A stretch of DNA of 33,461 bases from contig NZ_JANIBJ010000043.1 in the NCBI RefSeq assembly GCF_024505185.1, positions 1-33,461 on the forward strand, in the 5' to 3' direction. Within the stretch, counting starts at the first letter, position 1; every line of letters starts with the position of its first letter. Positions 6,981 through 29,700 of this stretch are shown here, one piece after another. The notes beneath the pieces are model-generated. The model made no database searches. It saw nothing but the letters and a program-made list of their open reading frames with translations, and was not told the DNA's origin. The translations under genes and the position numbers were made by a program. The stretch comes from Methylomonas subterranea. GTDB taxonomy: Bacteria; Pseudomonadota; Gammaproteobacteria; Methylococcales; Methylomonadaceae.

Positions 6981-7074
6981 TCGGCGCGATCTTCTCGTGA
7001 GAAACACCATGGAGTAGAATTGACATGAAATTTTTAAACAGACACCCCATTGACAACTAATCAAGGATTACAAA

Positions 7075-9812: not shown

Positions 9813-12269
9813 CTAGACAGCTTCAGCCGAAGGTTCGCAAATTGGACATTGAGCTAAAACCGCTTCAATGTCGGCCAACACTTTTGACCTTCTTTGCGCA
9901 TCTGAACGTTTCATTCTTTCCTCATGCCTTTCTACAATAAGGTTTGCAGTATCTAGTAAAGGCTCACCCCATTGGGAGAAGGTAGTTTGAATTTCCTCTC
10001 TGACAACTTTGTAGTTTGATTGCAATATTTCGATGGCAGGTTCTTTTGCTGCGTCAGTAGCCTGCCTAGCTAAGGCATTAAACAAATGAAGTATGCGTGT
10101 TTTTACGCCTGGACCTATATCGTTGCCATCAGCCACAAATTTTTGACAAGCATTTTCAATAGGCTTACGGATTGCTTCTCTTAGTTTTTGTTTTACTAGA
10201 GCCCGTAACTCATCAACAGCTTCCTTGCCGACTTGGTTCATCTGATCCGCTTGATTTGAAATCCGGGTTTGCTGGTTTTCTAAGAGTGTTTTGTTGATTT
10301 GGGCGCCACCATTTTCGATCGCCCACTCACAAATTTCTTGTACCATTTCGGCTATATCCGAAGACAAATCTTTCGTTCGTTTTCTAATTCCTTTGAGCAG
10401 TTTTTGCCCCCAAACCGCCGCCATAGGCTCTTGAAAGTAGTTTGCAATGTCATCTGGCAGACTGATTGTACGGCTTCCATAAAAGGTACCGCCGCGACGA
10501 ACGGCAGCCCTAAGTGTCGCCCAATGCGCCCACTGTAAGTCATACAAATAGCTGTTTACTTCCGTTTCCGCGACGCCCCGAGCTTCCAAAACCAATTCGC
10601 GGATTGAAGCTTGGACTGTTTCTTCGAGGAACTCCCGAAAGCCCCCGACCCGAAGGTCGTACTCCTTTTGCTTAGGACCCATAAATTGTTCTAATGCATC
10701 AGCTAATTTCTCAGCCTCTTCCGCTGCGCGTGTTCTCTCTTTCCACTGTGCTTCGATGATGGATAATTCATTGAGCAAATTGTCCGATAGTCGTTTCGAA
10801 ACTTCATCGATTCTACGACGCAGATTTTGGCGTTCCCCTTCGCTTAAGTCTTTTAGGCTTGCTTGCAGAGTAGGAATACCGGTTTGTTCTAAATCGGGTA
10901 AAAAAGCTTTATCTTCATCATCGTCGATCAATATCTTCCGGTATTCGGGTGCGGAAACAGGATGGATTTGCAAAGAATCCAAAATGTTCTCGCGTGCTTG
11001 CTCACGTGCTCTGCGTACAGTTTCGTTATCTGAAGTACCAATCTTACTAAGCTGTTCTTTGATCTGGCTGAGCATTCGAGGACGAAACTCCTCAACTAAG
11101 TTTGCAAAGACCTCACGTTTTTTCGGTCGTTTGCCATCAGAGTCTTCAACTGTGTTTCTCCATTCCTCTGCTGCGACATCGTCAACTTTGGTAACCGTAA
11201 TGAGCATTGAGCAAGGATCGCTTTCTGGGTCATCAGTCGCTCCCACCAACCGATCCCAATAACCACTGGTACGTAGCAACTCAATTGTTGATTCTGTCGG
11301 TCCAGCCCGATCAACTACAACAATGACAGCGCGTGCTTCTTCACCCACATATCTGCTAGTGACGGTGCGATAAGTGTCATTTGCAATCCCGACGCCTGGT
11401 AAATCTACTAATGTCACGCCAGCTTTGAGAACATCGGAAGGCCAGCCGACATGAATTTCCTCAATCAATGGAGACAAAAATCCAGCAGCATGGGCCTTGA
11501 GATCGTCCATGAACTCTTTTTTATCATCACCTTGGCATTTTTCGTGGCTGCGATTCGTGCGACTAGGCTTAATAACTTCCTTAACTCTATCGATTCGCTT
11601 TTGATCATCCGTATCCAGAGTGGAATGCCATCTTAATTTGCCATCACAGGCAACGCGGAGTGCATCGACAAGGTAAGCAAGGGGTTTGTCGCTGAACTGA
11701 TTGCCGGTAACGATTTGTTTAGCCTGTTTTATAAACCCTTCGATTGGATCATGAGTCGGCCCATCACTACTGGACGATTCGGCTGTAATGGTTGCACGCT
11801 CAAGCAAATCCTGTCTTTCATCATCATTTAATTCATGTTGAAAATCACTAGGTTCATCAACTGTGGGTTCTTTAGTTAAGGTAGTATTCTGCTTTGCTTT
11901 GGACTTTTGTTGATGAGTCAGGCGACTTTCCAATGCAAATGCAACGTTCCATAAATGCTTGCGAGGTTGGTATGTCACCTTAAAAGTAGGAATCTCACTA
12001 TAAAACACCTTAGTAGCCTGAGCTGTTAAAGGACCAATACCACCAGCAGGCAGAACCTGCTCCTTACCGGCTGCTAGTGCATTCAGCAGTGTGCTTTTTC
12101 CGATGCCAGAGTTTCCAAGAAAACACACCGTGATCGAATCAGGCATTGCCAAAAGCTTTTTTAGCCGCTCATAGTCGTTTTCGAAACCAGCAATCCGGTC
12201 TTTTGAATAAGTTTCAAAAAAAGGTTTTGCATGTGTTTCATACCATTGCAACAACTGCTGCTCTTTCAT
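9813..12269 (-). CDS. Dynamin-like large GTPase
   Basis: An 818-aa GTPase of the bacterial dynamin-like group. G1 is GNSGIGKST (52-60), G3 DLPGVG (289-294) and G4 TKVD (360-363). A long charged insertion (about 120-180, KSKAKQNTTL and acidic runs) lies within the G domain. From residue 480 to the end it is mostly helical and coiled (SEGERQNLRRRIDEVSKRL), as in dynamin stalks; no transmembrane segment is evident. The C-terminus carries a short CPIC. AGGAG sits 6 nt before the ATG. It is 36 bp after the PLD-like gene and 11 bp before the helicase. Dynamin-like proteins in defence loci (for example Eleos/Leo-type) are thought to act on membranes after infection; that role here is inference. Confidence 0.88.
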   Translation of the reverse strand: MKEQQLLQWYETHAKPFFETYSKDRIAGFENDYERLKKLLAMPDSITVCFLGNSGIGKSTLLNALAAGKEQVLPAGGIGPLTAQATKVFYSEIPTFKVTYQPRKHLWNVAFALESRLTHQQKSKAKQNTTLTKEPTVDEPSDFQHELNDDERQDLLERATITAESSSSDGPTHDPIEGFIKQAKQIVTGNQFSDKPLAYLVDALRVACDGKLRWHSTLDTDDQKRIDRVKEVIKPSRTNRSHEKCQGDDKKEFMDDLKAHAAGFLSPLIEEIHVGWPSDVLKAGVTLVDLPGVGIANDTYRTVTSRYVGEEARAVIVVVDRAGPTESTIELLRTSGYWDRLVGATDDPESDPCSMLITVTKVDDVAAEEWRNTVEDSDGKRPKKREVFANLVEEFRPRMLSQIKEQLSKIGTSDNETVRRAREQARENILDSLQIHPVSAPEYRKILIDDDEDKAFLPDLEQTGIPTLQASLKDLSEGERQNLRRRIDEVSKRLSDNLLNELSIIEAQWKERTRAAEEAEKLADALEQFMGPKQKEYDLRVGGFREFLEETVQASIRELVLEARGVAETEVNSYLYDLQWAHWATLRAAVRRGGTFYGSRTISLPDDIANYFQEPMAAVWGQKLLKGIRKRTKDLSSDIAEMVQEICEWAIENGGAQINKTLLENQQTRISNQADQMNQVGKEAVDELRALVKQKLREAIRKPIENACQKFVADGNDIGPGVKTRILHLFNALARQATDAAKEPAIEILQSNYKVVREEIQTTFSQWGEPLLDTANLIVERHEERMKRSDAQRRSKVLADIEAVLAQCPICEPSAEAV

Positions 12270-12305: not shown

Positions 12306-13193
12306 TTATTGGCCTGAACCTTCAATCACAAAATTATGGCAACTGTTTTGTTCCCATTTATTCCATTCATCCGTAAAGTTATCATTCGATAACCGAGTAA
12401 CTAAAACATCACCATCGCCTTCATCCAAACCGATACCGTATTGCAAGCAGCCTCGATCAGTTAACACAAACCTGTCATGCAATAACCGTTTCGCTTTAAT
12501 AAAAAATTTGACGCTAATTCCGGTCGGTAATAGCGTATGTAAGACAGACTTGCATTCACTTTCGAATTGTCCAATTGTTCTGTTATTGCTTTCGTAGGTT
12601 GTAACGTATTTGATTTGTAAGATTTTCGGTGCGTGGGCTTGTGCTTGCAGGCGCCTAGCAAATTCAATCAATACCTTTGAAAACCTAGCATCGGCAGGCT
12701 CAAAGTTCCGATCAATTAAAACCAAAACCCTTGAAAGATGTAGCAGTGGCGATGCCGCATCCACCATTTGCTTTGCGTTTCTGGAAACGGAAAAACTAGG
12801 TGGACTTTTCCATTGAGGAACCTTCCATGTATCAGCGATTGTGGTCACGTCGGCTTGCTCAGTAGGCTGGTGATTTAGTATTGCCCTAAACGGTCTTCGA
12901 CTGTGCTCGTCAACAGCATTTTCTATCCATTTTTTGTTGTCATCCCAAATAACCGATTGCCTCTCGTACAAGGCTCGTTTTTCAAGTGCGATTAGCAATT
13001 CTATTAGAGCATTTCGCTCTGAGTCGTCACGAGCATGCTTTTTAATTAGCTCTCTAGCATATTGAGTCCATTTACGCTTCCTTGGGTATTCACTAATCAA
13101 TCGGCCTTGGTCAATTCCAAAGGCTTCATAAAGAAAAGCAACGTCACTAATATTTTTAAATAAAGCGGGTGAAACAGCATATTCGTAGATCAT
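12306..13193 (-). CDS. PLD-like single-HKD protein (putative nuclease)
   Basis: A 295-aa protein. The N-terminal half (1-130) is helical and unrecognised. From about 150 an alpha/beta region (SRVLVLIDRNF; ILQIKYVTTY) leads to LLHDRFVLTDRG, matching HxKx4D of phospholipase D-type enzymes with Arg for Lys: His239, Arg241, Asp246. It is followed by GIGLDEG (253-259), resembling the GSxN step. One HKD motif means it would act as a dimer if active. PLD-fold nucleases are common defence effectors. The start overlaps the stop of the ATPase gene by one base (TAATG), so these two are a coupled pair. The nuclease call is tentative, because the Lys-to-Arg change is unusual for a catalytic HKD. Confidence 0.7.
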   Translation of the reverse strand: MIYEYAVSPALFKNISDVAFLYEAFGIDQGRLISEYPRKRKWTQYARELIKKHARDDSERNALIELLIALEKRALYERQSVIWDDNKKWIENAVDEHSRRPFRAILNHQPTEQADVTTIADTWKVPQWKSPPSFSVSRNAKQMVDAASPLLHLSRVLVLIDRNFEPADARFSKVLIEFARRLQAQAHAPKILQIKYVTTYESNNRTIGQFESECKSVLHTLLPTGISVKFFIKAKRLLHDRFVLTDRGCLQYGIGLDEGDGDVLVTRLSNDNFTDEWNKWEQNSCHNFVIEGSGQ

Positions 13194-14752
13194 TAGTCGA
13201 ACATCCTTCCGATCTCTTCGGATAAATCTTCCAGATCACCGAAGTATTCCTTCTCCCGTTCTTCAAAGAAACCTCGTGGCCAGCGGTCATCAAACCGACC
13301 TTCTTCATTGATGCGAAGATGCTTCAATACCGTGCCTTGGCTGGAGGACTCGACGTAATACACCGCGACTCTGTCGGGAGATAGTTTTAGCTCTTCAGCT
13401 ACTTGGCCTTCACTCGATTGGCGTATCCGTCTCAAGAGTCTTAACAGCAAATGTTCACTATGGGTTTCGATCAGAAATTGCCGACTGAATCCCGCTTCAT
13501 CATTGGTTTGCTGAATGAACAGATCGCCCAAAGCAACCTGTACCGCTGGATGGATATGCAGTTCCGGTTGTTCTATCGCCGCGATACCGCTTTTTTGCGC
13601 TAGTGCGGCAACGACAACCGGTATAACCTGAGAAATACCTATTCCCACGTCTTGTGGCGCAACATCCAAAAAGTCCTTCTCTTGCCGTAATAACAAACGC
13701 TTTTTTTCCGGTAAGGCTTCGATTTCTTGCCGAATCATTTCGTAGTTATCCAGAAAGTCTTCACCCTGAGATAAGGCGGACATTGCCATGCCGTCCACGT
13801 CCAGTTCTTTGTATCGCTTAACGTCCACTCGGTAACCGGTATTCAATCGCGTTTCCCAGGTCAGCCACTTATTCAGTTCATCGACCTGCGACAAAGAGGC
13901 ATCGTTAATCCAGTCCCAAGCTGCTAAGCCTGTAGACCATCGGGATTCGTCGGGCGATTTGGAAGGTTGATAGGTACGATCCGGTACTACGCGAATCGGG
14001 CCAAGGTATTTAAGTTTTCTAAGATTGCTGCGTAGATACTCACCCGGAGAAATCAGGCAAAAATTAATTAATTCGCTGAATTCGCCAAGATCACGGGCCG
14101 CAAATACGCTCCGGATTTCGTCAAAGAGCGTCTCGTGTTTTGAATTAGCCCGCTGGGATAACTCATAGTCCACCGTCGTTCGGTCATCCCACTTGATGTC
14201 AACATCTGATGGCTCAAGCTCTAAACCCTCGCAAAACCAAGGATGGCGTATGTTAAAGCTCACCACATGCTGCAATCCGGTGCTGTCATCGGCTGTTACT
14301 TTGGCTGCGACAACACCATTGATACCTACTTCATAATCAGCTTGTGTTGGCTGCTCAAGAAAGCTGCTCCATTTAATGTCTAACTGTACCCATGCCGACA
14401 TAGCTTGACCACTCCATTCTTGGAAGGCTGGAGAATCTGGATAGTCGGAATAATCGACCAGATCAATATCCGTTAAATCAAGATCGAATCGGAGTGAGAT
14501 GGGTAAATTGGCATCATGGTTATGAACCAAGTTTCGAAAACCACCCAGGTCTACAGCATCACCGCCTTGAATGGTTTTGTCCGGATCAGTATTGGCACGT
14601 TCAAGGATTTCCCTGGCAAACAATAAGGCCTGAAGAATGGTACTTTTACCGGCGCTGTTTGCGCCAAACAACAAAGTAATTGGTTTTAGTTCAACACAAA
14701 CAGATTCACCGATGCCTTTGAAATTTTGCAGTGTGATAGATTTAATACTCAT
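13193..14752 (-). CDS. AAA_15/DUF3696-family ABC-type ATPase
   Basis: A 519-aa ATPase of the COG4938/DUF3696 type, related to the OLD and RecF/SMC ATPase heads. Walker A is GANSAGKST (30-38). A long insert (about 90-350) takes the place of a coiled coil. The signature region (VGIGISQVIPVVVAAL) precedes Walker B AAIEQPELHIHP (E394-E397), then IETHSEHLLLRLLRR. The C-terminal DUF3696 motif GRFDDRWPRGFFEER is at about 487-501. No TOPRIM nuclease is fused, so cutting would fall to the coupled PLD-like protein. A 177-bp gap separates it from hsdS, enough for its own promoter. Similar ATPase plus nuclease pairs occur in anti-phage systems. Confidence 0.88.
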   Translation of the reverse strand: MSIKSITLQNFKGIGESVCVELKPITLLFGANSAGKSTILQALLFAREILERANTDPDKTIQGGDAVDLGGFRNLVHNHDANLPISLRFDLDLTDIDLVDYSDYPDSPAFQEWSGQAMSAWVQLDIKWSSFLEQPTQADYEVGINGVVAAKVTADDSTGLQHVVSFNIRHPWFCEGLELEPSDVDIKWDDRTTVDYELSQRANSKHETLFDEIRSVFAARDLGEFSELINFCLISPGEYLRSNLRKLKYLGPIRVVPDRTYQPSKSPDESRWSTGLAAWDWINDASLSQVDELNKWLTWETRLNTGYRVDVKRYKELDVDGMAMSALSQGEDFLDNYEMIRQEIEALPEKKRLLLRQEKDFLDVAPQDVGIGISQVIPVVVAALAQKSGIAAIEQPELHIHPAVQVALGDLFIQQTNDEAGFSRQFLIETHSEHLLLRLLRRIRQSSEGQVAEELKLSPDRVAVYYVESSSQGTVLKHLRINEEGRFDDRWPRGFFEEREKEYFGDLEDLSEEIGRMFD

Positions 14753-14929: not shown

Positions 14930-15523
14930 TCACTCAGAATAGTAATTATCAAGGAAAGTTGACTTAATTAATTCATTCGTTAACTTAATAGCCTCCTGAT
15001 GTTTTCGACGAATTTCATAAGCCATCTTCAAAACCCTAGAGACTTTTTTTTGATCATCTATATCTGGCATTTCAAATTCAATATTTCCCAAGTTACTTCT
15101 TGATATTCTCTGCCGAGTCGCTCCTTTTACCCACTCTCCTATTCTATTCTGAAAAACATTTGAATTTAAAAAATAGAGTAACCAGTCTTTTTCAACAAGC
15201 TCAGAATCAACCCTCAATATGCAAACATCAACAACTGTGACACAAGGCTTTTCATCTCCTGGGAATATGCACGCCCGACCAATTGGATCAGGCATTCTTG
15301 CGATTAAAATATCGCCAGGCTGAAGAAACGTACACTTCAATGCTATTGCAGTATCTGATGTCATAAACCTTGTAGACTTATTAATGTATTCACCTATCCC
15401 AATATCAGCTAATTGAATAAGCCTAACATCACCTTTTGGATCCTGATCTTTGCTTTCAACCCAATCCCCATCGATAAATATTCCAGAATCACCCGTTAGA
15501 TCTGGCAATGTTGTTAATTTCAT
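14930..15523 (-). CDS. hsdS: Half-size type I restriction specificity subunit (single TRD)
   Basis: A 197-aa HsdS containing one target-recognition domain and one helical conserved region; full-length HsdS has two of each in about 400 aa. The TRD carries the typical [43 protein letters not shown] and [22 protein letters not shown] pattern, followed by a coiled spacer ([24 protein letters not shown]). It sets the DNA target of HsdM/HsdR. It ends cleanly and no second half is seen downstream, so it is either a natural half-S that dimerises to read a palindromic site, as proposed for AhdI-like enzymes, or a shortened remnant. It overlaps hsdM by 4 bp (ATGA). Confidence 0.85.
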
Positions 15524-17070
15524 TTTAATAAATCTTCCAGTTTAGCAGTGTCATCTATTATTTCTGACTCAATTTTTTTTAGTTCAAACAATACCTTTGC
15601 CGGTGCGCGATATTTGTCTACTTCATAGCTTTCTTTCTTATATCTATTAATTGAAAGTTCATAATTTTTTTCTCTGATTTCATCATTTGACACGAGAAAA
15701 TATTTTTCGCTACGGTCATGAACGTCAATTAACGCTCTCATTTTCCATCTTTCCAATAATTCGGGTAAATCACCCGCGAAGTCAGAGTCATATAAACGAA
15801 TGCGTTTGTCATCTAGGGAAAAACCATCATCCTCTAAGTCATAAAAAAATACTTCCTTCGTACGCCCACCCTTAGTAAATATTATGATGGCAGTTGATAC
15901 CCCAGCATATGGCCTGAATACGCCAGATGGCAATGAAATAACACCTTCTAGTTGATTTTCTTCAACTAGATGCTGTCTAAGGCCCTGATGTGCTTTGGTA
16001 GAACCAAACAATACACCGTCTGGTACAACCACGGCACAGCGACCACCGTTACGGAGCATGCGCAAAATCAGCGTAATAAATAGCAATTCGGTTTTTTTAG
16101 TTTTGACTTTACGTAATAAGGTTGGATGGACATCTTCTTCATCCAGACTGCCTTTGAAAGGTGGATTGGCGAGGATGACATCAAAGCCATTGGTAGCCTT
16201 ATCTGGAAATTTATCTGTGAAATTGCTGCTCAGTGTATCTTGATAATGAATGTCTGGTGAATCGACGCCGTGTAAGAGTAGGTTCATCGCAGCGATTCGC
16301 AGCATGGTGGCATCGAAATCAAAGCCATGAAACATGCCGGCGCGAATAAATTGCCAATGACTTTCCAGCAAGTCACCGGTATAGGTTTTTTCGACTTTAC
16401 CATTAACCGTATGCTCGATCACACCTTCGGGCGAGGTATGTTTTCGCAACAGATATTCCATTGCACCAACTAAGAAGCCACCTGTACCGCACGCGGGATC
16501 GGCAATCTTTTCAGTTGGCTTTGGATCAAGCAGTTCAACCATTAGCCGGATGATATGGCGTGGCGTGCGGAATTGGCCATTGATGCCAGCAGTGGTGAGT
16601 TTGGATAATAAATATTCGTACAAGTCACCCTTGGTATCACCTTCAGTCAACGGCAAATCATCGATCATGTTGACAGCTGACACTAACAAAGTTTCTTTCT
16701 GAATCATCAGCTGCGCGTCTTTGAAATACTCTCTAAAAGTCGTAGGTTGCGCACCGTCAGCGATATCTAGTTCGGAAATGGATTTGAAGTGCGGAAATAC
16801 TTTATCGCGCAACAATGGCAGCATTTGCTCTGCACCGAGTTGTTTGAAATGGGACCAGCGCAATTCCTGTTCCTCGTCATTAAAAATTCGATGGAAGGGT
16901 TTGCCGGTTCTGCTAGCTTTTTTTTCGTTACGCGTTTCAACGATGTCCAGCAAACGGGTGAACATCAAAAAAGTGATTTGTTCAATCACCGTCAGTGGAT
17001 TAGTGATCCCACCGGTGTGAAATTCCAACCAAAGTTTGTCTATGCGGCTTTTTAATTCGCCAGTAATCAT
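15520..17070 (-). CDS. hsdM: Type I restriction-modification DNA adenine methyltransferase
   Basis: A 516-aa N6-adenine methyltransferase. The HsdM_N helical domain (1-130) is followed by the SAM-binding motif [16 protein letters not shown] (about 190-204) and the catalytic motif [10 protein letters not shown] (about 299-306). [16 protein letters not shown] just before motif I is also typical. The C-terminal 100 residues contact HsdS. It methylates the host's sites and forms the M2S core with HsdS. It shares one base with the hsdR stop (TAATG) and overlaps hsdS by 4 bp. AGGAG lies about 10 nt before the ATG. All catalytic residues are present, so methylation should be active. Confidence 0.95.
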
Positions 17071-20000
17071 TATTGTGCTCTCTCCTGAGTGTGGCTGGGT
17101 TTGAATGTATTGATGATGGCAATCAGTTCTTCGCTGTCGGCTTCGTTATTGAATACGCCGTCTATGCCGTCGGCATCCACCAAGGTAAAAGGGTCTTCAT
17201 AAAGGCGTTCGATTTCAATAGCGCCGTATTTGGCAATATGGTTTTGCAACAGGCTTAAAAACTGGGTTTGTTTCGCGGTTAAGAGTGGATGCTTTTGGAC
17301 GAACCACTCAAAGCGTTCTCTAACGGCATCGGGCTCCATGCCGACAATCGACCGAATGATGTGATCCATTGGCAATGCTTCGCCATAAAAGCCTTTCAGC
17401 ACGTCCAGACGAACATCCGGATGTTGGATAAGCACCAGAGATGTTAAATTTTCCAACTCAATGGTCGAGACCGATTCGCCACGGCGGATTTTCTTTAGCG
17501 TCGGATCAGTGTCAAATAACTCGCGAAGTGCCTGGTCGACTTGTTGCTGATAGACCTTCATATCCACTGAGCGGATAGTCGAAGAACGTTGCCCGCTTTC
17601 TATTTGAGCTGTATCTTCGGTAATGTCGATTATTTTGGTTGTACTGGTGCCACCACCGCCACTCGACGCTTGGTGATGAATAATGTCACGCAATTGCTTT
17701 CGAACATCTTCAAGTGCTGGAACAGTGACTTGATTCCAAAATTCTGTTGCTCGCACATTTTTGATGAGTTCGGCTTTTTCGCGGACTTGATTTAAGTGCA
17801 TCTGTAGGCCATTAACTCGATCCATGAGGGTGATTTTCAGATCGTCGAAGCGACTGGAATTACGTAATAGTTCTATCTGCATCCGAGCGATCAGTAAATC
17901 CAGTTCGTAGACTTCGGTTGCCCCACGCACGCTTACCCATTGCATCAAAGGGGCAATTTCAGTTTTAAGACCCGCAACCGTAGCCGGTGCCCATTGGTGA
18001 AGTGTTTCCGGTTGGGAAAGATTCTGTTTAGTCCGCCATTTTTCCCGTACAGCAATGCTTTCATCTGGCAGTTGATTGATGTCTTTGGCAATCAAGGCTT
18101 CGGCGATTTCAAAAAACTCCGGTTCTGCAGCTTGCAGTGCCGCGTCGGCTAAAGCGATTCGCGTTTCAAAGAGCTGTTGCAATAAAGGTTTGCTGACGAC
18201 AGGTTCAACAGGTTTGTAATGAAACTCAAAATAGTCAAAGTTGCCCCAGTGATCGAAAATCCTGAATCCGGTTTTATCCTTACCCAAGCCAAAGAGATTG
18301 GGGCATAACCGAGTTCCGCGCCCAATCATCTGCCAAAATTTCACTTTGGAGAAAACCGGTTTGGCAAATACCAGATTTACTACCTCTGGAACATCGATAC
18401 CGGTGTCCAGCATATCTACTGATACGGCAATGGTTAGCTCGTTATCGAGTTGTTTAAAATCGTCGATTAGCTGTTCAGCGCGAGGATCGTAGTTATCGAT
18501 GACCTGGCAAACTTTGCCTCCATATTGCGGATACATTTCGTCAAAGACGTTTCTCAGCAACAGTGCGTGTTCATGATTGCGAGCAAAAATAATGGTTTTG
18601 CCAACTTGCTGGCCACTGGCATCGCGAATGCCATTTTCCATAAGGTTACGGATGATATGGCGATTGGTGTCTTTGTTGTAGACGTTTTTGTCGATGTCTC
18701 TGACTTCAAAGTTAAGCGTCTGCGCGTCTTCGCCTAAATCCTCGAGTTCTTGCCGCTGCTCATTGGTGAGTTGTTGGTATTTAATGCCGCGACGCAGAAA
18801 ATCGGTGGTGTAGGTCTGTACTTCAAACGGTACCAAATAATGTTCTTCGACCGCTCGCTCGAAAGAATAGTAAGCAGTGGGGGCTTGGTTTTCACACTCG
18901 AATAATTGAAAAGTGTTTCGGGTGACGAATTCGACAGGAGTTGCGGTAAGTCCTACTTGCAAGCAATCGAAATAACGAAAGATGTCGCCATACACGTTGT
19001 AAATCGAGCGATGCGATTCATCGGCAATAACCAGATCGAAGAAGCCAACATCAAACGTTTGAAAGACTTTTGCCATTGCCGGATAAGTAGCCAGATAAAT
19101 CCGTTTCTGTCTATCTTTGGCTGTGCTGGCTCCTACAGTGACTAAGGGCTCGTTGAGATAATCATTGAACGCATCTTTAGCTTGTTTGCGAAGTTCGCGA
19201 CGGTCGCAGAGAAATAGCACACGCTTGACCCAGCCGGCACGAATTAATAGCTCGGTCAGAGCAATGGCTACACGCGTTTTTCCTGTACCAGTTGCCTGAA
19301 CGATTAACCCTTTGCGATATTGATTGGCAAAACGCTCGGTAACACGCTTGATGGTTTCAATTTGGTAAAGGCGACCAGCAATCTCAGCTTTTGGCGATAG
19401 GCTATTCAATGCTTGTTTGGCACGACGTTGGTACACCAAATACTGCAAGCTGTCTTTGGAATAAAAGCCAAAAATTTTGCGTGGCGGATAACCTTGCTGA
19501 TCGTCCCAAATCCAAATATCAAAACCGTTGGTGTAAAAAATTACGGGTCGTTGTCCGTGATCTTTCTCCAAACCATCGGCGTATATACGTGCTTGGGTGC
19601 GACCTTTCTCGGCATTTTCAGAAGCTTTTTTTGCTTCGATGATTGCTAGTGGTTTGCCGTTGTCATCCCACAATACGTAATCGATTCGGCCTGTTTCTGA
19701 ATTGGTAGGTTGATGGTTGACTTCGATCTCTTGGCCAACTTGCTCTGTATTGGTACCGTTGTTACCAATATGCCAGCCAGCGTCTGCGATTTGCCGATCA
19801 ATCAGCCTTTTCCTGGTAGTGGCTTCATCAAATTTGAATACGTCGGCAACTTGCTGACCTTTGGCGGTTGATTCTGCTATGTCTGCTAGCTTTTGTTCCG
19901 CGTTTTGCACCTGCGTTCTGGATTGTTCCAGTTCAGCGAATAACGCTTGCAACTGTGCTTCTTGAGCTGACAATTTTTCCAGAATAGCTTTTTTTTGCTC

Positions 20001-20453
20001 CTTGAGTTTTGCTTTGCTGTCTGAGTCTTGATTTTCGGCTTTTGGCTCCTGATATTGCCCACATAGCGAGGCTTCGCCTCTGGCAAAAGCGACAAAAAAC
20101 CAGCGAGCCAGATCATATGCTTCTTTAATTAACCAAAGAGCTGTTTGCTTGGAAACCGTTTCTCCATGAGCTGCTTTATTGCCTGCATCCCTTATAGCGT
20201 GGAATTTTAAATAAATTGGCCTGGGTGCTAAATCACGAAAAACATCGTTGTTTAGCAAGTCATTTAGAGTAGGTTGAATAGGTTTGGGTAAACCATGCAT
20301 TTGGTAGAGCGCACCAACCATCCTTTCCACGAACAAACGCAGCTTGACCAACGCACTTTGCGGATCGCTGTGTGCGTAGGTTTCGCTAAAGCCGCCAAGA
20401 GCGGCCAAGTCTGGCCAACTCTTTTGCAGGAATTCGAAGTTAATGGATTTCAT
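17070..20453 (-). CDS. hsdR: Type I restriction enzyme motor/endonuclease subunit
   Basis: A 1127-aa HsdR. Residues 1-125 are a DUF4145-like domain ([28 protein letters not shown]), followed by a coiled segment (about 145-200). The nuclease domain has [24 protein letters not shown] (about 256-279), a PD-(D/E)XK site with Asp, Glu and Lys. The helicase motor has Walker A ATGTGKT (about 388-394), DESH (near 477) and GLTATP, and [11 protein letters not shown] as motif VI. The C-terminus matches the EcoEI-type R_C domain. It translocates DNA and cuts when unmodified sites are found. It is first in the minus-strand cluster, with a leader of about 151 nt from a strong sigma-54 promoter candidate at 20615-20630. 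Confidence 0.95.
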
Positions 20454-20614
20454 GTTGGATTTTTGTTTCCTAAAAATAAGGGCATTCCTTGCTCACGCTT
20501 TATTTTACGCCTGCTTTCAGGGTATCTATACACTTAGCAACGTCATTTCGTAAGCTAGGCAAAGCTGCTCATCCTCATCTGGTGGTGTTCCTCACTGAAA
20601 AGCTATTCATTAAA

Positions 20615-20630
20615 TGCAATAACGATGCCA
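20615..20630 (-). promoter_or_regulatory. Sigma-54 promoter facing hsdR
   Basis: The minus strand reads TGGCATCGTTATTGCA. The -24 TGGCA and -12 TTGCA boxes are exact, and GG and GC are 12 bp apart as required. Predicted transcription start is near 20604, giving a 151-nt leader to hsdR. Activation would need an enhancer-binding protein; the CARF activator in this window is the obvious candidate. Confidence 0.78.
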
Positions 20631-20677
20631 AAAAATATAAGATCATCTCGGGAGTGGATTCTAAAGGATTGTTAGAG

Positions 20678-20695
20678 TTTCTGAATAGTCAGAAA
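20678..20695. promoter_or_regulatory. Dyad 1, candidate enhancer site
   Basis: Perfect 7-bp inverted repeat TTTCTGA-ATAG-TCAGAAA. Its centre lies about 82 bp upstream of the predicted hsdR start and about 144 bp upstream of the predicted sbcD start, within the usual range for sigma-54 activator sites. Confidence 0.5.
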
Positions 20696-20700
20696 AACAA

Positions 20701-20724
20701 TAGATATAAAATATTTTTTATCTA
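20701..20724. promoter_or_regulatory. Dyad 2, candidate enhancer or bend site
   Basis: Inverted repeat with arms TAGATAtAAAA and TTTTtTATCTA, one mismatch. Its centre is about -108 for hsdR and -118 for sbcD, midway between the two sigma-54 promoters. The AT-rich tract could be a bent site rather than a protein target. Confidence 0.4.
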
Positions 20725-20804
20725 AAAGTAAATATTTTTATACTAACCAATATGCAAGCAGCCAAAAATTATCCATCTCACTGTTTTTTAAGTAAAAATT
20801 AACA

Positions 20805-20820
20805 TGGCACGAGAGGTGCA
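20805..20820 (+). promoter_or_regulatory. Sigma-54 promoter facing sbcD
   Basis: TGGCACGAGAGGTGCA: the -24 box TGGCACG is a full consensus match, and the -12 box has GTGCA for TTGCA, with correct GG-to-GC spacing. Predicted start is near 20831, 29 nt before the sbcD ATG. No clear Shine-Dalgarno sequence is seen in the leader. Confidence 0.8.
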
Positions 20821-20859
20821 TGTAAGAATGCATTATCGACTAGTAAATAAAAATATTTC

Positions 20860-22104
20860 ATGAAAATCATTCACACCTCTGATTGGCACCTTGGCCACAG
20901 CCTGAAAGGCTTTGACCGTCATTATGAGCATCAATGCTTCCTCGATTGGCTACTCGTGCAACTGCGCGAGCAAGACGTCGATGCGCTGCTGGCCACCGGC
21001 GACATTTTCGACAACGCTAATCCATCGGCGGCAGCACAAAAGCAGTTGTACCGGTTTCTGAAGGCGGCACGCGAAGCCGCGCCGCATTTGCGGGTGGTGA
21101 TGATTGCCGGCAATCATGATTCGCCCGGTCGCTTGGAAGCGCCTTCGCCGTTATTGGATTTATTCGATACCACGGTGGTGGGCCAAACGGGGCGTAATGG
21201 CGCAGGCGAAATCGATCTGGAGTCGTTGATCGTACCCTTGCATGATCGCGAGGGCCTGCGCCGTGCCTGGTGTTTGGCGGTACCTTTTTTACGCCCCGGC
21301 GATCTGCCGCGCGTCGAAACTGACGGCGACACTTATCTGGCCGGCGTGGATGCCTTGTATCGCGATGCCTTGCAGCAGGTTCTGCTGAAACGGCAAGCTG
21401 GCGAAGCGATTTTGGCCATGGGCCATTGTCACCTCGATGGCAGCGCGGTGTCGGCCGACTCGGAACGGCGGATTGTCGTCGGTGGCTTGGAAGCCTTGTC
21501 GGTGGCGATGTTCGACAAGCATATCGCCTATGCCGCACTCGGTCATTTGCATTTGCCGCAAAGTGTCGGTGGTCGCCATTGGGTGCGCTACAGCGGTAGT
21601 CCGCTGCCACTGTCGTTTTCCGAAATCGAGTATCCGCATCAAGTGGTGGTGTTGGAGCTTGAGGGCGAAGCAGTCAAATACATTGATAGTTTGCGCGTGC
21701 CGAGAGCTGTAGACTTGTTGCGAATACCCACGCGGCCGACACCGTTGCCGGAAGTACTGGCGCAATTAGAGCAATGGACAGCGGCCGAGCCTGAGTTGCC
21801 GGAAGAGCGTTGGCCTTATCTGGAAGTTCGGGTGTTGTTTGATGCGCCGGAACCCGGTGCACGGGTGGCGATTGAAGCAGCATTGGCCGGCAAAGCCCTG
21901 CGCCTGGCGGCGATTGATGTCAGTTACGCACGGGTTCAGCGTGCGGCGAATGAGGGTGCCGGATCGTTGCAGGGTGATCTGAGTCGATTGCAGCCGGAGG
22001 ATTTGCTGCAACGCCACTATCAAAATCAATATGGTTCCGCCTTGCCTGAAGAATTGTTACAGGCCTTTCAGACCTTATTGCTGGAAACGGGGGACGAAGC
22101 ATGA
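20860..22104 (+). CDS. sbcD: SbcD exonuclease subunit (Mre11-like)
   Basis: A 414-aa Mre11-family metallophosphoesterase; with SbcC it opens and degrades DNA ends, hairpins and protein-blocked ends. The five phosphoesterase motifs are visible: HTSDWHLGHSL (5-15), GDIFDNANP (about 47), GNHDSPGRLEAPSPLL (about 86), MGHCHLDG (near 188) and YAALGHLHLPQ (near 226). The C-terminal capping region is normal in length. The start follows a sigma-54 promoter by 29 nt. The stop overlaps the sbcC start (ATGA). It is more GC-rich than hsdR, so it may have a different origin. An sbcDC pair under sigma-54 control is unusual, because the pair is normally a housekeeping operon. Confidence 0.95.
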   Translation: MKIIHTSDWHLGHSLKGFDRHYEHQCFLDWLLVQLREQDVDALLATGDIFDNANPSAAAQKQLYRFLKAAREAAPHLRVVMIAGNHDSPGRLEAPSPLLDLFDTTVVGQTGRNGAGEIDLESLIVPLHDREGLRRAWCLAVPFLRPGDLPRVETDGDTYLAGVDALYRDALQQVLLKRQAGEAILAMGHCHLDGSAVSADSERRIVVGGLEALSVAMFDKHIAYAALGHLHLPQSVGGRHWVRYSGSPLPLSFSEIEYPHQVVVLELEGEAVKYIDSLRVPRAVDLLRIPTRPTPLPEVLAQLEQWTAAEPELPEERWPYLEVRVLFDAPEPGARVAIEAALAGKALRLAAIDVSYARVQRAANEGAGSLQGDLSRLQPEDLLQRHYQNQYGSALPEELLQAFQTLLLETGDEA

Positions 22105-25100
22105 AGATTTTGGCGATTCGCGGTAAAAATCTGGCTTCACTGGCTGGCGAGTTTGCCATCGATTTTCTGCAACCGCCGCTGGCATCGGCCGGATTGTTCG
22201 CGATCAGCGGCCCGACCGGTGCCGGCAAATCCACCCTGCTGGATGCGCTGTGCCTGGCGTTGTTTGATAAAACCCCGCGCTTGCACCAGGCCGGCAGCCG
22301 AGGCGTGCAATTACGCGATGTCGGCGATGAAACCCTGCCGCCCAATGATTCTCGCAACCTGTTACGCCGGGGCTGCGCCGAAGGCTATGCGGAAGTTGAG
22401 TTTATCGGCAACGACCGACAGCATTATCGTAGCCGCTGGAGCGTGCGGCGGGCACGCTTGCGGACGGACGGCAAGCTACAGGCGACCGATATGGAATTAT
22501 TTCGTTTGCCGGATCAACAGCCGATTGGCGGCAAGAAGACCGAAGTGCAGGAAGCAATTGTCGAACGGCTTGGCTTGAGTTTCGAGCAGTTCACCCGCGC
22601 GGTGTTGTTGGCACAGAATGAGTTCAGCGTGTTTCTCAAAGCCCCCGACGACGAACGCGCCAGCTTGTTGGAAACCTTGACCGGCACCCATGAGTACAGC
22701 CGCATCTCCATCCGGGCCTTTGAACGCGCCAAACAGGAGCGGCAAAAATTGGAGGCGTTGCAGCAACAACTGGTTAGCCAACAGCCTCTGGCCGAGGACC
22801 AACGCGAGGCGTTGCTGGGGCAAATTCAAGTGGCGCAGACTGCGGTAGATACCGCGCAGAACCAAAAATCCGAATTGGACGGTCATCTGGACTGGCATCG
22901 GCGCTACCGGGCCTTGCAAACGGCGGAACAACAAGCCCAAAGCCAATGGCAACAAGCTCAGCAGAGCCATGAACATGCGCAGCCGCAACGTCAGCACCTG
23001 GCGCTGATCGAGTCCTTGCAAGCCGCACGGCCATTTCTGGTTGATTTGGATCGCTTGCAGAGCGAATGTGCCGAAATGCAAACGCAGTTGGCTAAGGCTG
23101 AACAGATGGTAACGTCTGTCACAGCGTTGCATGAACAGGCGCTACTCAATCAGGCGAACGCCGAAACCCACGTACAGCAGGCCGAACAGCAAAAAAGCGC
23201 AGCGGAGCAGGACATTGTTCAGGCGCGCAGTCTGGATGCGCAAATCCAGACCCTGCAACCGCAACATCTGAAGCAACAACAGGATAAATTGACGGCCGTT
23301 CAGCAGATGGCTGATTTGCGCCGGAAATACCACCACACGCAGCAGAACGAACAACAACTGACCGGTGAATTGGTGCTGTGCCAGACTTGGCTGAACCAAT
23401 ATCAACATTGGCTGATCTTGAGCGAGCAATGGCCGCGTTGGGACACGCTATTCCGCCAAGGCAAAATACTGAACGGCGAAATGCATACTGCGCGCTCTGT
23501 GTTGACGCAATCTGAAAGCGCTTTGGCTCAGGCCGACGCGGCCGCGCAAACAGCCCGGCACGCACTCGACGTGTTGTTGCCGCAACTCTCAGCCGCCGAA
23601 CTGCAATGGCAAACGGCAGACGCCGAGGCTAAGGGGTTTGATGCGGATGCACTAACCCAAACATCGGAACGGCAACAACTCCGCTTATCTCAATTGCGTC
23701 AGGCTGATACCGTGTGGCGGGAACTGGCGCGGTTGAAATCAGAAGTCGATCAAAAGACAACCACGTTGCAAACCGTATCGGCCCAGCAACATCAAGCCAG
23801 CGCCGCGTTACAGGACGTCGAAACTGCGTTACCGCGTTTGATTGCCAGTCACGAACAGGCGACCAAGATGCTCGAATTGGCCAAACTAGCCTGCAGTGAG
23901 CGCGTGGAGGCTTTGCGCGCTCAACTCAAACCCGACACGGAATGCCCGGTGTGCGGGGCCATGCAACATCCGTTTGCCGAACACGATCATCCCCTGCGGC
24001 ACGAATTACAGGCGCTGGAACGCGAAGTCGAGGCGTGTTGCCAGCGTCGGCAACAGGCGGAAAGTGATCGTCAGCGTTGGCAACTAGACATCGCGCACTG
24101 CGACCAAACGATACAAGCAACCCATGATTTGCTGGCAACGCTGAGTCGCCAAGTCGAATCTCAACAGCAAAGCGGGTTGGCATTGGCAGCGGCATTATCC
24201 ATTGCGGACATGCCCGACGAAGGCATCGCCGTGTGGTTGGCGCAGGAAACCCTAGCGACGGAACAAGTCTTGCAAGGAGTTGGTGAGAGTTTGAAAGCCA
24301 TGAGCGCGGTGATGAAGGTTCGTGATCAGGCTTACGCAAAGTTGGAGCAACTCAAATCGCAACAGCAATCCTTGCAGCAGCAATGGGAGCAAGCCAAGGT
24401 TGACCGGCTCAGCGCGGATCAAGCATTAGTCAAGGCCCGTGACAATCTCCAAGCACTGTCTTTAAAGTTGGAACAGGTATTGGACGAACTGGATGGTGCC
24501 TTTGACGACTCGAGCTGGCGTCAAGCCTGGCAAACCGATGCGGAGGGGTTTTATCAAACCTGTTTGCAAAACGCACAAGCCTGGCACAGTCATCATCAAC
24601 AGCAAGCTCAGTTGAGCCAAAAACTGTCTATTCTTCAAACGGAATTGCAGGCGTTGCAGGGCCAGGTAACCCAAGCGGAACAACGACAAGCCGAAGCCGA
24701 TGCTGCATTTGCGGCCATAGATGCAGAGCTAGTCGCCAAACAGCAGCTGCGGCAAGGTCTGCTTAACGGACGTTCGGTCACGGAAGTCGAACAAGCGTTG
24801 GTCAAGACTTTGAACAACGCCAAGACCAAACTGCAGAGCGCCGTGACTGCCGTGCAGGATGCGGTAACCAAACTAGCCACGGCACGAGAGGCTGTTAGCC
24901 AAATCACTCAGTCGCTTACCGCGCGGCAGACCGCGTTGCATGCCGCCGACGCGGCGGTGTCGAGTTGGCTGCAAACCTTTAATGCCACGCACCCCAACCG
25001 GGCGGCCCTGGGGCTCGACGATTTGCGCAGATACTTGCTAAAGGATGCGGCCTGGTTGCAGCGCGAACGCGAGGTATTGCAACAATTGGATCAGACATTG

Positions 25101-25835
25101 ATGCAGGCGCAAACGGTATTGGCCGAGCGTCGCGCGCAATGCGAACACCAGTTGCAATTGCGCCGCTCTTTGGAAAGTTTCGAAAGCTTGGAAATTCAGC
25201 TGACCGATCTTGCCGAACAAATTAAGGCGTTGACCAAGCAACTGAGCGATTTGCATCTGCAACGCCGCCTGGACGATGAGCGCCGCCAAGCTTGCGCAGG
25301 TTTACAAACCCAAATTGCCGCGCAAACTGCCGTCAACGACACCTGGGCCAAGCTCAGCAGCCTGATCGGTTCTGCCGACGGGAAACGCTTTCGCAATATC
25401 GCGCAGCAACTGACGCTGGATATTTTGCTGGGTTATGCCAATCAGCATTTGAAAGACCTGAGTCGGCGTTATTGTCTGGAACGGGTTAACGATAATCTTG
25501 CACTGCAAGTCGTCGATCAGGACATGGGCGACGAAATCCGTTCGGTTCATTCCTTGTCCGGCGGCGAATCCTTTCTGCTGTCGTTGGCCCTGGCTTTGGG
25601 GCTGGCCTCGCTATCCTCGAATCGGGTGTGCGTCGAATCGCTGTTTATCGACGAAGGCTTTGGCAGTCTGGATGCCGACACGCTGCGCGTGGCAATGGAT
25701 GCTTTGGACAGTCTGCAAGCCATGGGCCGTAAGGTGGGGGTGATTTCCCATGTACAGGAGATGACAGAGCGGATCGGCACCCGAATCGAAGTCAAACGGG
25801 TTGGCAGCGGCTTGAGCAATGTCAGGGTGATTTGA
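22101..25835 (+). CDS. sbcC: SbcC ATPase subunit (Rad50-like)
   Basis: A 1244-aa Rad50/SMC-type ATPase, the partner of SbcD. The N-terminal ATPase half has Walker A GPTGAGKS (37-44) and the Q-loop (LLAQNEFSVFL). Two very long Gln-rich coiled coils flank the zinc hook CPVCG (Cys615, Cys618). The C-terminal half has the signature SLSGGESFLLSLALALGLAS (about 1150-1169) and Walker B LFIDEGFGSLD. All elements of an active complex are present. Length is somewhat above the E. coli protein, within family range. A 132-bp gap follows before the next plus-strand gene, without a clear terminator. Confidence 0.95.
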   Translation: MKILAIRGKNLASLAGEFAIDFLQPPLASAGLFAISGPTGAGKSTLLDALCLALFDKTPRLHQAGSRGVQLRDVGDETLPPNDSRNLLRRGCAEGYAEVEFIGNDRQHYRSRWSVRRARLRTDGKLQATDMELFRLPDQQPIGGKKTEVQEAIVERLGLSFEQFTRAVLLAQNEFSVFLKAPDDERASLLETLTGTHEYSRISIRAFERAKQERQKLEALQQQLVSQQPLAEDQREALLGQIQVAQTAVDTAQNQKSELDGHLDWHRRYRALQTAEQQAQSQWQQAQQSHEHAQPQRQHLALIESLQAARPFLVDLDRLQSECAEMQTQLAKAEQMVTSVTALHEQALLNQANAETHVQQAEQQKSAAEQDIVQARSLDAQIQTLQPQHLKQQQDKLTAVQQMADLRRKYHHTQQNEQQLTGELVLCQTWLNQYQHWLILSEQWPRWDTLFRQGKILNGEMHTARSVLTQSESALAQADAAAQTARHALDVLLPQLSAAELQWQTADAEAKGFDADALTQTSERQQLRLSQLRQADTVWRELARLKSEVDQKTTTLQTVSAQQHQASAALQDVETALPRLIASHEQATKMLELAKLACSERVEALRAQLKPDTECPVCGAMQHPFAEHDHPLRHELQALEREVEACCQRRQQAESDRQRWQLDIAHCDQTIQATHDLLATLSRQVESQQQSGLALAAALSIADMPDEGIAVWLAQETLATEQVLQGVGESLKAMSAVMKVRDQAYAKLEQLKSQQQSLQQQWEQAKVDRLSADQALVKARDNLQALSLKLEQVLDELDGAFDDSSWRQAWQTDAEGFYQTCLQNAQAWHSHHQQQAQLSQKLSILQTELQALQGQVTQAEQRQAEADAAFAAIDAELVAKQQLRQGLLNGRSVTEVEQALVKTLNNAKTKLQSAVTAVQDAVTKLATAREAVSQITQSLTARQTALHAADAAVSSWLQTFNATHPNRAALGLDDLRRYLLKDAAWLQREREVLQQLDQTLMQAQTVLAERRAQCEHQLQLRRSLESFESLEIQLTDLAEQIKALTKQLSDLHLQRRLDDERRQACAGLQTQIAAQTAVNDTWAKLSSLIGSADGKRFRNIAQQLTLDILLGYANQHLKDLSRRYCLERVNDNLALQVVDQDMGDEIRSVHSLSGGESFLLSLALALGLASLSSNRVCVESLFIDEGFGSLDADTLRVAMDALDSLQAMGRKVGVISHVQEMTERIGTRIEVKRVGSGLSNVRVI

Positions 25836-25967
25836 GGGAAGAAACTTTGGACCTTCGCAATTCGTGCTGGTGCTGGTGTTGGTTTCGGCCATCACCGACC
25901 ACAGGGTTTGGTATGCTGAGGTAATTTACCGTCTCTAACCTTTAGATTACCATCGATAATCAATCCC

Positions 25968-26402
25968 ATGTCCACCAAATCCAGCATCGCCTGCGGGCCG
26001 AATTTTCACTTTTACCACGAAGCGTTTGAGCAAGATGACGTCTATCTGGAACTGGAGCAGGCATTTTTCGAAGCCTCACCCGATAAAATCACGGTGGCCA
26101 TACCGGTTGTGGTTTGGGAAGTCATCCGCCAGTATGCCGGTGCCGATTTGTCCTGGGTCGCCAAATCCGATGAGGAGATTCAGCAATGGGTGGAACATGA
26201 AGTGGGTGAACGGATTGCGTTGAGTCAGACCGCTACCGCTAATCGTGCATTTTTCCGGATGTGTGGGGATTTGACGTTCGGTTCTGTTGACGATCCTAGA
26301 GAAATGCAGCTCGAGCGCGGTCTGGCGCATTGTTTTGAAATGCGGGAAAAGCAACGCCAGTTGATTGCTCAGGTGAATGAATTGATGAGCAATCAGCGTT
26401 GA
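25968..26402 (+). CDS. Conserved hypothetical protein downstream of sbcC
   Basis: A 144-aa soluble protein of unknown function. It begins with SSIACGPNFHFYHEAF, a pattern I recall from uncharacterised proteins but cannot place. A strand-rich part with VYLELEQAFFEASPDKITVAIPVVVWEVIRQY follows, then an acidic helical half (EEIQQWVEHEVGERI) and a basic helical tail (MREKQRQLIAQVNELM). No enzyme motif, signal peptide or membrane segment is visible. It lies 132 bp after sbcC and 48 bp before the zinc-ribbon gene on the same strand, so it may be read through from the sbcD sigma-54 promoter. No good ribosome site is seen. It may be an accessory of SbcCD or of the induced response; this rests on position only. 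Confidence 0.72.
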   Translation: MSTKSSIACGPNFHFYHEAFEQDDVYLELEQAFFEASPDKITVAIPVVVWEVIRQYAGADLSWVAKSDEEIQQWVEHEVGERIALSQTATANRAFFRMCGDLTFGSVDDPREMQLERGLAHCFEMREKQRQLIAQVNELMSNQR

Positions 26403-26450
26403 GCCTAATATTCGCTGACGAATCACTGTCACAACTACATTAGTAAATCC

Positions 26451-26774: not shown

Positions 26775-29700
26775 ATGACTTCCCCGACTAAAGAAACATT
26801 GGAACACTTGGTAGATTGCATGAATGGCCCAAGCCAGAAACGAGTTTCAAGTCCGATTTCCACCGGTGGTGAGGGCGTGTTCTTCGAGCAACACGTCGCT
26901 GCGTACTGGCTCGTCCAGTTGCTCGTCCGCAGCATCCCGCCGATCTTGACCGATACCGGCGTCACCGAAGTCCATTTCCAGACTGAGCATCTCGGCTTCA
27001 ATACGGACGACGTCCTAGTCGTCTGCGCGCGCACAGGGGCGGCGACTGCGCGCCTCGTCGGGCAGGTGAAGCGCAGCTTCACCATCAGTGCTGCCGATGA
27101 TGAATGCAAGAAGGCCATTGGCGATTTCTGGAAGGATTTCAAGAAGGCCGCCCCTTTCAATCCTCAGTACGACCGCTTTGTTCTAGTGACGCTGCGCGGC
27201 ACGAACGTGCTCCTCGAGAATTTTGTCGGGCTGCTCGACTGCGCCAGAGGCGCGGCTGACGGCGAGGAGTTCGAAAGACAGCTGTCCCTCGACGGTTTTA
27301 TCTCAAAGAAGTCCGTCCATCAGTGCAATCAACTTCGCGAGATCGTCAGCAAACTGGAAGGGACGCCCGCCACCGCCAAAGACCTGTGGCCCTTCCTGCG
27401 CGTACTGCACGTTCTGAGCCTCGACCTGCATACCTCCACGCGCCAGACAGAGGCTCTCATCAAGACGCTGCTTGCCCTCAAGTCAACCGATCCGGATCCT
27501 GTCGCGAGCGCGACAGCCGCGTGGAACGCCCTTCTGACCTTCGCGAGCGAGGCCGGACCGGGCGCGCTGAGCCTGAAACGCGCCGACCTTCCAGCTGCTC
27601 TCGTCCAGGCGTACGGCGAGGTGGGCACGAACGAGCAGCGTGTACTGACGGCACTGAAGAACCACACAGACTTCGTGCTCCGAAAGACCCGGACCACGAT
27701 CGGACCGGCCTTCCATCTACGGCGCGCCGGTATCGTCCAAAAGGTACTTGCGGCCATCGAGGCGAAGCAAGTCGTCCTGATAACGGGGCCGGCCGGCAGC
27801 GGCAAATCCGTCATTGGGAAGGAGGCGGTGGCCTTTCTATCCCACGAATTTTTCGCCTTCGGGTTCCGAGTGGAGGAATTCGCCGTCGCTCACATCGACG
27901 AAACACTCCACAACAGCCAGATTCCTGCGCGAGCCACCGAGCTTCAGGCCATCCTCGGCGCGCAGGGCCGCAAGGTCCTCGTGATCGAGAGTGTCGAACG
28001 CCTGCTCGAAAAGCCGACGCGCGACGCGTTCAGCGACCTCATGACTCTCGCCCAGGGCGACGACGGCCTCGGCATCCTCATGACCTGCCGCGATTATTCC
28101 GTGGAGCAGGTGCAGGCCAGCTTTCTCCAGGCGGCGGGGATTGAACACGCGGTCATCGAAGTTCCGCCGCTTGACGACACCGAATTGCAGGAGGTCAAGG
28201 CCGCCTTTCCGTCGCTGGCAGTGCCACTCGCCAACCCCGCCCTGCGCGAGATCCTGCGCAACCCGTACTTCATCGACAAGGCATTGCAGATTCCGTGGGA
28301 TGCAGGACGTCCGCTTCCGGAGAACGAGCGCGATTTCCGCGCCGTCTTCTGGCGGCAGATCGTGCGCGCAGACCAGAGCCCGGCCGGCGGCATGCCGCGC
28401 CTGCGCGAAGTGGCTTTGCAGGAGCTGGCGGTGCGCAGGGCGCGTGCCCTGTCGGATTACGTGCCAGCGACGGGACTCAATGCCGCAGCCATCGCCCTCC
28501 TCAAACAGGACTCCCTCGTTGTTTCTCCCGACACCAATCCTTTGCTCGTGGCCACGACGCACGATGTCCTCGAGGACTGGGCCATCCTGCAATGGATCGA
28601 GGAACAGCACCTCACGGATGAGACGGCGTTCAATGCACTGTCATCAGCGATAGGGCCGCATCCTGCGGTGCGCCGCTCTTACCGGAAGTGGGTTGCCGAA
28701 CTGGTCGACCGCGACGCACCCGCAGCGGACCGGCTGTTCAGCGCGGCCATCGCCCAGCCCGACGTGCCCGCCCAGTTCCGCGACGATACGTTGGTCTCAC
28801 TGCTGAAAGCACGGTCGGCGTCAGAATTCCTGACGCGGCACGAGGCCGAGCTGCTCGCCAATGACCGCGCAATCCTCAAGCGGGTCATCCACCTCCTGCG
28901 CGTCGCCTGTGTGACGTCGCCCGCGTGGCTTGCCGACGTGCGCGGCCACAGCTCCATCCTGAGCGTGCCGGACGGCGCGGTCTGGGCAACCGTCGTGGGA
29001 CTGGTTCACCGCAACATAGGTAGCTTCGGAACGGAAGACGCACCGCTGCTTCTCGCATTGATCGAGGATGCCGTGCGCGGCGTCAGTTGGTGGGCACCGG
29101 ACATCGACGGGGCCGAACATGTTACCGGCATTGCCCATTGGCTCCTCCCACACTTTGATCACTACAGGGGAGACGATGCCCGGAAACGCATTCTGAAGGT
29201 GATTGCGAAGATCCCGAAGGCCGCCCCCACGCGCTTCGAAGCCGTTTTGCGCGGACAGATTAGGGAGGGATGGCATCGCGATCCCGTCGCCGAGGAGTTC
29301 CGCGACATCCTCCTTGCGGGCCTGGAAGGTGCCCCTGCCGCGCGCGACCTGCCGGACCTTTTGATCTCCGTGGCACTGGATAGCTTCCTCGCGACGGAGG
29401 AGTATCTGCGCGAGGAACCGTACGGCCGATCGTCCATCGACGTTGACCTTTACTTCGGTATCAAGGAGCACCTGCATCACGATTTTTTTCCTGCCAGTGC
29501 CTTCCGGGGGCCGTGGATCAACCTGCTCACGCACCATCCGAGAAAGGGTCTCGACTTCCTGATCCAGGTCTTCAATCACAGTGTCGAGTGGTACGTGCAT
29601 CCGCGTCTTAGCGACCGCCTCGAACCCGCCTGGGAGGTCGAGCTCACGTTTGCGAACGGGACCACGCGGAAGCAATGGGTCAACCCGCGCCTCTGGTGCC

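Follow-up and report, generated by a model that had tools for sequence, protein, structure and literature searches.

Within a 33,461-nucleotide stretch of DNA from the methane-consuming bacterium Methylomonas subterranea (hereafter the window), the intergenic gap of 406 bp between the starts of hsdR (20453, minus strand) and sbcD (20860, plus strand) carries two outward-facing sigma-54 -24/-12 elements. Judged from the sequence and its comparison with relatives, one enhancer gated by a CARF-type activator probably switches on both a type I restriction operon and sbcDC through this divergent sigma-54 region. Both boxes are well supported as sigma-54 elements, the hsdR box better than the sbcD box. 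The coordinates of the features are collected in Table 1.

Table 1 Features of the window, with coordinates counted from its first nucleotide
Feature	Position	Strand	Remarks
CARF-AAA-HTH sigma-54 activator	5463..6980	+	PADLOC RtcR_PspF2--CARF_AAA_HTH best family, E 7e-192; GAFTGA and Walker motifs
Decayed sigma-54 element	6982..6997	+	abuts activator stop in relatives; 5/16 positions differ from G061, -12 GC included
SNF2/DEAD-type helicase, DrmD/BrxH-like	7075..9801	-	
Dynamin-like GTPase	9813..12269	-	
295-aa protein	12306..13193	-	pairs with ATPase; without Pfam match
AAA_15/DUF3696 ATPase	13193..14752	-	recurrent cargo of CARF-activator islands
hsdS, 197 aa	14930..15523	-	G010 homologue has 398 aa
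hsdM	15520..17070	-	
hsdR, type I restriction subunit	17070..20453	-	heads leftward operon
sigma-54 -24/-12 element TGGCATCGTTATTGCA	20615..20630	-	faces hsdR; inferred start site ~20604
AT-rich dyad TAGATATAAAATATTTTTTATCTA	20701..20724		adjoins candidate UAS; possible second UAS half
Candidate enhancer (UAS) AAAGTAAATATTTTTATACT	20725..20744		centre 104 bp to hsdR box, 71 bp to sbcD box
sigma-54 -24/-12 element TGGCACGAGAGGTGCA	20805..20820	+	faces sbcD; inferred start site ~20831
sbcD	20860..22104	+	
sbcC	22101..25835	+	4-nt overlap with sbcD
144-aa orf	25968..26402	+	kept beside sbcDC in G061
Avs4-like STAND NTPase	26775..31892	+	same strand, after sbcDC; shared transcript only possible

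Divergent sigma-54 elements between hsdR and sbcD

Both gap boxes show the GG-N10-GC spacing within a TGGCA and TTGC-like context, the -12 of the sbcD box reading GTGC; the hsdR box lies 177 bp upstream of its gene. A previous reading of the window made from the letters alone (the sequence-only reading) had proposed two such outward boxes, and their positions and spacing bear it out. Scored with a first, approximate sigma-54 matrix, the hsdR box reached 15.3 and the sbcD box 17.0 (maximum 19.5). Elsewhere in the window the sole score above 15 was 16.7 at 1518 on the plus strand, within a hipA frame (1518-1533). A second matrix was built from 47 boxes of other genomes, themselves chosen with the approximate matrix, and ranked the gap boxes 1 and 2 in the 33-kb window (16.3 and 16.2; next 13.0). 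Deviations from these reference boxes are a G in the sbcD box where 37 of the 47 carry T (G in 6/47), and a T and a C in the hsdR box where C and G prevail.

The pair had been called unlikely by chance, and this judgement held in simulations: among 200,000 first-order Markov sequences with the composition of the 406-bp gap, not one reached a score of 15 on both strands and seven reached 13 on both; 0.24 % contained any site with a score of 15 or higher. A loose pattern with two mismatches allowed gave 60 matches over the window for 63 expected, which is not significant; since loose matching stays at the chance level, it is the strength and the placement of the sites that matter. The exact motif TGGCAYN6TGCW occurs 58 times on both strands of the own genome vs 14 times for the reversed control, and this 4.41-Mb genome, of which the window forms one contig, holds one match to sigma-54 (PF04552; rpoN; E 4.4e-68). 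A scan for sigma-70 promoters remained near the chance level (3 found vs 1.8).

The exact divergent gap was present in one of 37 genus genomes, the own one. A direct search of these 37 genomes with the gap yielded, besides the own copy, a 41-bp match in G206 that covers the sbcD end of the gap. The own genome has two further places where exact TGGCAYN6TGCW sites form an outward pair (G000:C24:70760-70945 and G000:C2:75991-76319). Another outward pair of sigma-54 boxes was observed in locus L069 (16745-16974), with a malic-enzyme/RND-efflux gene run on one side and a 412-aa frame lacking Pfam matches on the other, about 11 kb from a CARF activator.

On the leftward arm the frames of hsdR, hsdM and hsdS overlap (17070; 15520-15523), so that restriction and methylation would be induced together, with the nuclease gene first. 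HsdS has a single specificity domain and is a half-size subunit.

The activator-promoter unit in relatives

Most relatives have the orthologous activator immediately 5' of hsdR, and a sigma-54 element starts a few bases from the activator stop. Methylotuvimicrobium buryatense 5G (L067/L094) shows this canonical order of activator, element and hsdRMS. The CARF loci were the best 80 of 214 found in public genomes, of which 53 were used as intact (activator longer than 400 aa with GAF[TS]GA). An element scoring at least 11 was located near the stop in 47 of these 53, at an offset of 0-4 in 36 cases; random windows contain such an element in 2.8 %. Without any matrix, TGGCA alone was detected near the stop in 46/53 vs a mean of 4.6 by chance. 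Among 16 loci with non-CARF activators, none of the nine scorable ones had a stop-adjacent sigma-54 element. An hsdR-like frame starts within 1.5 kb behind the activator in 33/53; the cargo in other CARF loci is the pair of ATPase and 295-aa protein, a VWA protein or other genes. The activator-plus-promoter unit also heads defence genes in other bacterial phyla. In L125, L159 and L161 the AAA_15 ATPase and 295-aa pair follows the CARF activator and an hsdR match is absent from the locus, hence the pair looks like a separate defence module. In G072 (L068 2263-18095) the CARF activator and its sigma-54 element head an Mko-like (MkoA/MkoB) operon instead of a restriction-modification (R-M) operon.

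The sequence-only reading regarded both boxes as conserved if real, and on the hsdR side this expectation stood. Apart from the own genome, 13 of the 201 genomes in a family sample encode HsdR at 46-56 % identity to the window HsdR, and in all 13 relatives of at least 45 % identity a sigma-54 element is located 42-47 bp before hsdR. Full-length HsdR at 31-35 % identity had a facing element of at least 11 within 700 bp in 0 of 11 cases. These counts come from 39 matches among those listed, 30 with loci; left out of the tally were one locus with 110 bp of upstream sequence and four distant ones in which the match begins within the protein. Among these four, L198 has a site of 12.5 at about -446. 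Three genomes of one genus (G032, G055, G005) lack a CARF-type activator match and retain only remnants ahead of hsdR; their hsdR elements score 12.3-12.4 vs 13.5-15.4 in the other ten. In G028 the activator is interrupted, yet the box is kept (13.5), which counts against a strict coupling.

Among the best 80 of the 214 CARF loci, 66 have a complete activator; of the others, 8 are below 440 aa and 6 are cut off by the contig end. At the stop of these 66 activators, the pattern TGG[CT]A-N8-G[C/A] was present in 58, with a -12 GC in 47 and GA in 11. All 11 GA forms (activator stop codons of L100, L102, L107, L110, L112, L113, L115, L118, L122, L128 and L131) fall into a single 12-protein clade with hosts from four phyla (GA forms: three). 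The six activators with GAFTDA in the sigma-54-contact loop all have GA promoters, and GAFTDA was combined with a GC promoter in 0/47. Shared ancestry may explain this pairing. The GAFTDA/GA clade lends itself naturally to testing how the loop relates to the -12 contact. Activators lacking GAFTGA were considered as a promoter-less control and ruled out, as most carry GG-N10-GA.

Probable cassette replacement, candidate enhancer and the sbcDC arm

That the window encodes a sigma-54 activator, as the sequence-only reading had stated, is confirmed by the gene at 5463-6980. Its assignment to the CARF type rests on PADLOC; the N-terminal domain (first 175 residues) has a predicted alpha/beta fold with a mean pLDDT of 86.6, and no PDB sequence matched the CARF alignment at E 0.01. 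Upstream of the gene, at 5024-5057, a perfect 34-bp palindrome TTGCAATAAATTGCGAATTCGCAATTTATTGCAA lies within a 98-bp stretch (4961-5058) that is missing from G061, perhaps a small mobile insertion.

DNA identity with G061 extends over 5059-7026 at 88.7 % and again over 20860-29696 at 93.5 %. One breakpoint falls at the hsdR start behind the activator, the other at the start codon of sbcD. The intervening 13.8 kb appear to be a replacement cassette containing a related, oppositely oriented R-M operon. It brings both gap boxes, and a decayed copy of the old hsdR element stays behind the activator. The canonical layout, i.e., an element abutting the activator stop followed by hsdR, is not present: as this element has decayed and hsdR is located at the far end in opposite orientation, the window represents a rearranged variant. 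It would work like the CARF-bEBP R-M module, yet departs from the canonical layout of that module.

A candidate enhancer lies between the two boxes. The UAS matrix was trained on five activator-upstream sites of other genomes, with the window left out, and had its top match in the window there (13.2; next 11.3), a score that 95 of 4000 shuffled gaps reached (2.4 %). The site has one mismatch and is embedded in AT-rich DNA; sites without a nearby box in L074 (14.5) and L068 (14.0) outscore it. In the family, a dyad RTAAATNNATTTAY is located about 85-105 bp before the activator start; it is perfect in 4 of 13 activator loci (L064, L065, L066, L070) and deviates at one position in M. lenta and at two each in the window and G061. 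The G061 dyad (L063:9052-9073) was absent among the 45 best UAS-matrix matches. In G028, three of the six perfect dyad sites in 5 Mb fall into the activator island, one of them before the activator; the other two form a tandem pair that precedes another sigma-54 box by 81 and 101 bp, and the next same-strand gene behind this box is a transposase. Over seven genomes the dyad was found 28 times vs 17 for the reversed control, a weak enrichment; the own genome has one perfect site, on another contig. Inside the activator gene of canonical loci no UAS was located; AT-rich matches roughly 350 bp ahead of the stop were set aside, as they seem to fall on conserved codons. From the position of the candidate UAS, a single bound activator could act on both promoters, for which the sequence gives moderate support; the candidate itself and its tie to the activator of the window are likewise moderately supported.

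The decay of the element adjoining the activator implies that the activator could be an orphan. Both boxes would then be real sigma-54 promoters driven by another activator, the CARF activator having lost its targets through the cassette swap. At least seven activator-type matches in the own genome, the window CARF activator included, and the moderate UAS support agree with this explanation. We consider it unlikely, however, because the CARF activator is intact and shares 93 % identity with its G061 counterpart, the strongest window match to the activator-upstream motif of relatives sits between the boxes, and HsdR of this clade occurs together with this activator in 10 of the 13 relatives in the family (one copy interrupted).

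The sbcD half of the expected conservation did not stand. Within 700 bp, a facing box of at least 11 was found in 0 of 29 other family sbcD loci, two of them with shorter upstream sequence; the scan covered 30 loci, the own one included, out of 59 genomes with a match. As the window alone of these 30 loci has a facing box, sigma-54 control is not a general sbcDC trait in the family. The outcome fits, as expected, a sigma-54 dependence of sbcDC inside islands only, yet it amounts to no conservation. Three genomes have sbcD inside a CARF-activator island (window, G061 and M. lenta). In G061, sbcD overlaps an ASCH-domain gene and a sigma-54-like box precedes the ASCH-sbcDC run, scoring 13.9 with the approximate matrix and a weak 10.3 with the 47-box matrix; the window cassette has no counterpart of this ASCH promoter, yet carries strong boxes on both arms. 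In M. lenta, sbcD shares the strand of the activator, follows it at 8.7 kb inside the activator-hsdRMS island, and has no box of its own.

The scan of the 29 loci and the boxless sbcD of M. lenta would also fit sigma-54 control of hsdR alone, with a fortuitous match before sbcD and sbcDC transcribed otherwise. This is improbable as well: both matrices put the sbcD box first in the window, its GGTGC form of the -12 recurs among the boxes at activator stops, and a sigma-54-like box stands before ASCH-sbcDC in G061. That both matches arose by chance and the genes are constitutive is very improbable: the loose pattern at chance level and the third good match inside hipA speak for it, but the simulated gaps, the comparative evidence (activator-stop elements and hsdR elements of relatives) and the near-chance sigma-70 scan speak against it.

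Proposed induction and relation to known systems

Sigma-54 polymerase forms closed complexes, whose opening needs an ATP-driven activator at an enhancer. According to the favored reading, the joint control of both arms by the CARF activator, sigma-54 RNA polymerase would wait in closed complex at both gap boxes. The CARF domain may sense a nucleotide or RNA ligand derived from infection or damage, and binding of the ligand would relieve the activator, which would then bind the AT-rich dyad between the boxes and open both promoters. Leftward, the genes for HsdR, HsdM, HsdS, the ATPase, the 295-aa protein, the dynamin and the helicase would be induced; rightward, sbcD and sbcC and perhaps orf144 and avs4. 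SbcCD would process broken or palindromic DNA ends. We infer the silence of both arms until one signal arrives, as well as the ligand and the extents of the transcripts. The host genome would be unmethylated at induction if the uninduced level is really nil.

The link between such activators and restriction has been known since 2014. CARF-NtrC-like proteins are described as often located beside R-M systems and as likely sigma-54 activators of downstream genes (Makarova et al. 2014, PMC4012209, in the sections consulted). The window shares with these the domain architecture and the R-M association; promoter elements, an enhancer or an sbcDC arm are not named in those sections. It differs from the CARF-NtrC/R-M module by its divergent box pair, which sits at the far end of an oppositely oriented operon. 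The RtcR-rtcBA system likewise comprises a CARF-gated sigma-54 activator, a UAS and a -24/-12 promoter (PMC9650030, consulted in part), but targets rtcBA, the window R-M instead. On the NCBIfam RtcR model the window activator scored 331 bits vs a cut-off of 650, and rtcA/rtcB families were detected in none of the 17 window proteins scanned. CoCoNuT systems have, as the window does, an RtcR-like gene before long defence operons, in which type I R-M is possible; the window differs from these superoperons, as portrayed in the consulted part of PMC11090510, in the lack of an McrBC-type gene and in targets on both strands. McrBC-type families (CnuB/CnuC/CnuH-like) were detected in none of the same 17 proteins.

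In Xylella, a computed -24/-12 match precedes the type I R-M operon of XF2724, as in the window; it is a low-scoring table entry, and the passage concerned leaves activator and conservation undiscussed (PMC3224663). An ntrC mutant had a type I R subunit among its raised genes, according to the consulted part of PMC5491218, and the corresponding part of PMC12316311 mentions neither restriction nor CARF. A literature search, covering titles and abstracts among the matches listed, with bioRxiv and most subscription journals outside, gave no such promoters, no such enhancer and no sigma-54-controlled sbcDC; promoters, enhancer and sbcDC arm were thus found in no paper.

Type I restriction is usually viewed as a constitutive barrier, for which the methylase must precede the nuclease. 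If true, a sensor-gated sigma-54 R-M operon with the nuclease gene first would be an induced response in an unmethylated host, and such induced R-M would resemble CRISPR type III signalling more than classical restriction. A wider reading is possible but doubtful: a CARF sensor and sigma-54 promoter may form a transferable unit that makes whole defence islands inducible, the GA clade included, in an unmethylated host where the burst would hit phage and host. If so, a burst of HsdR, SbcCD, dynamin and helicase would act on both alike, and one multi-phylum clade would have switched the -12 from GC to GA, with the contact loop altered in some members. The conserved promoter at the activator stop provides a handle for the CARF-family regulon and for the question of the CARF ligand. 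Carriers of the unit include named isolates, e.g., Methylotuvimicrobium buryatense 5G, which is genetically tractable.
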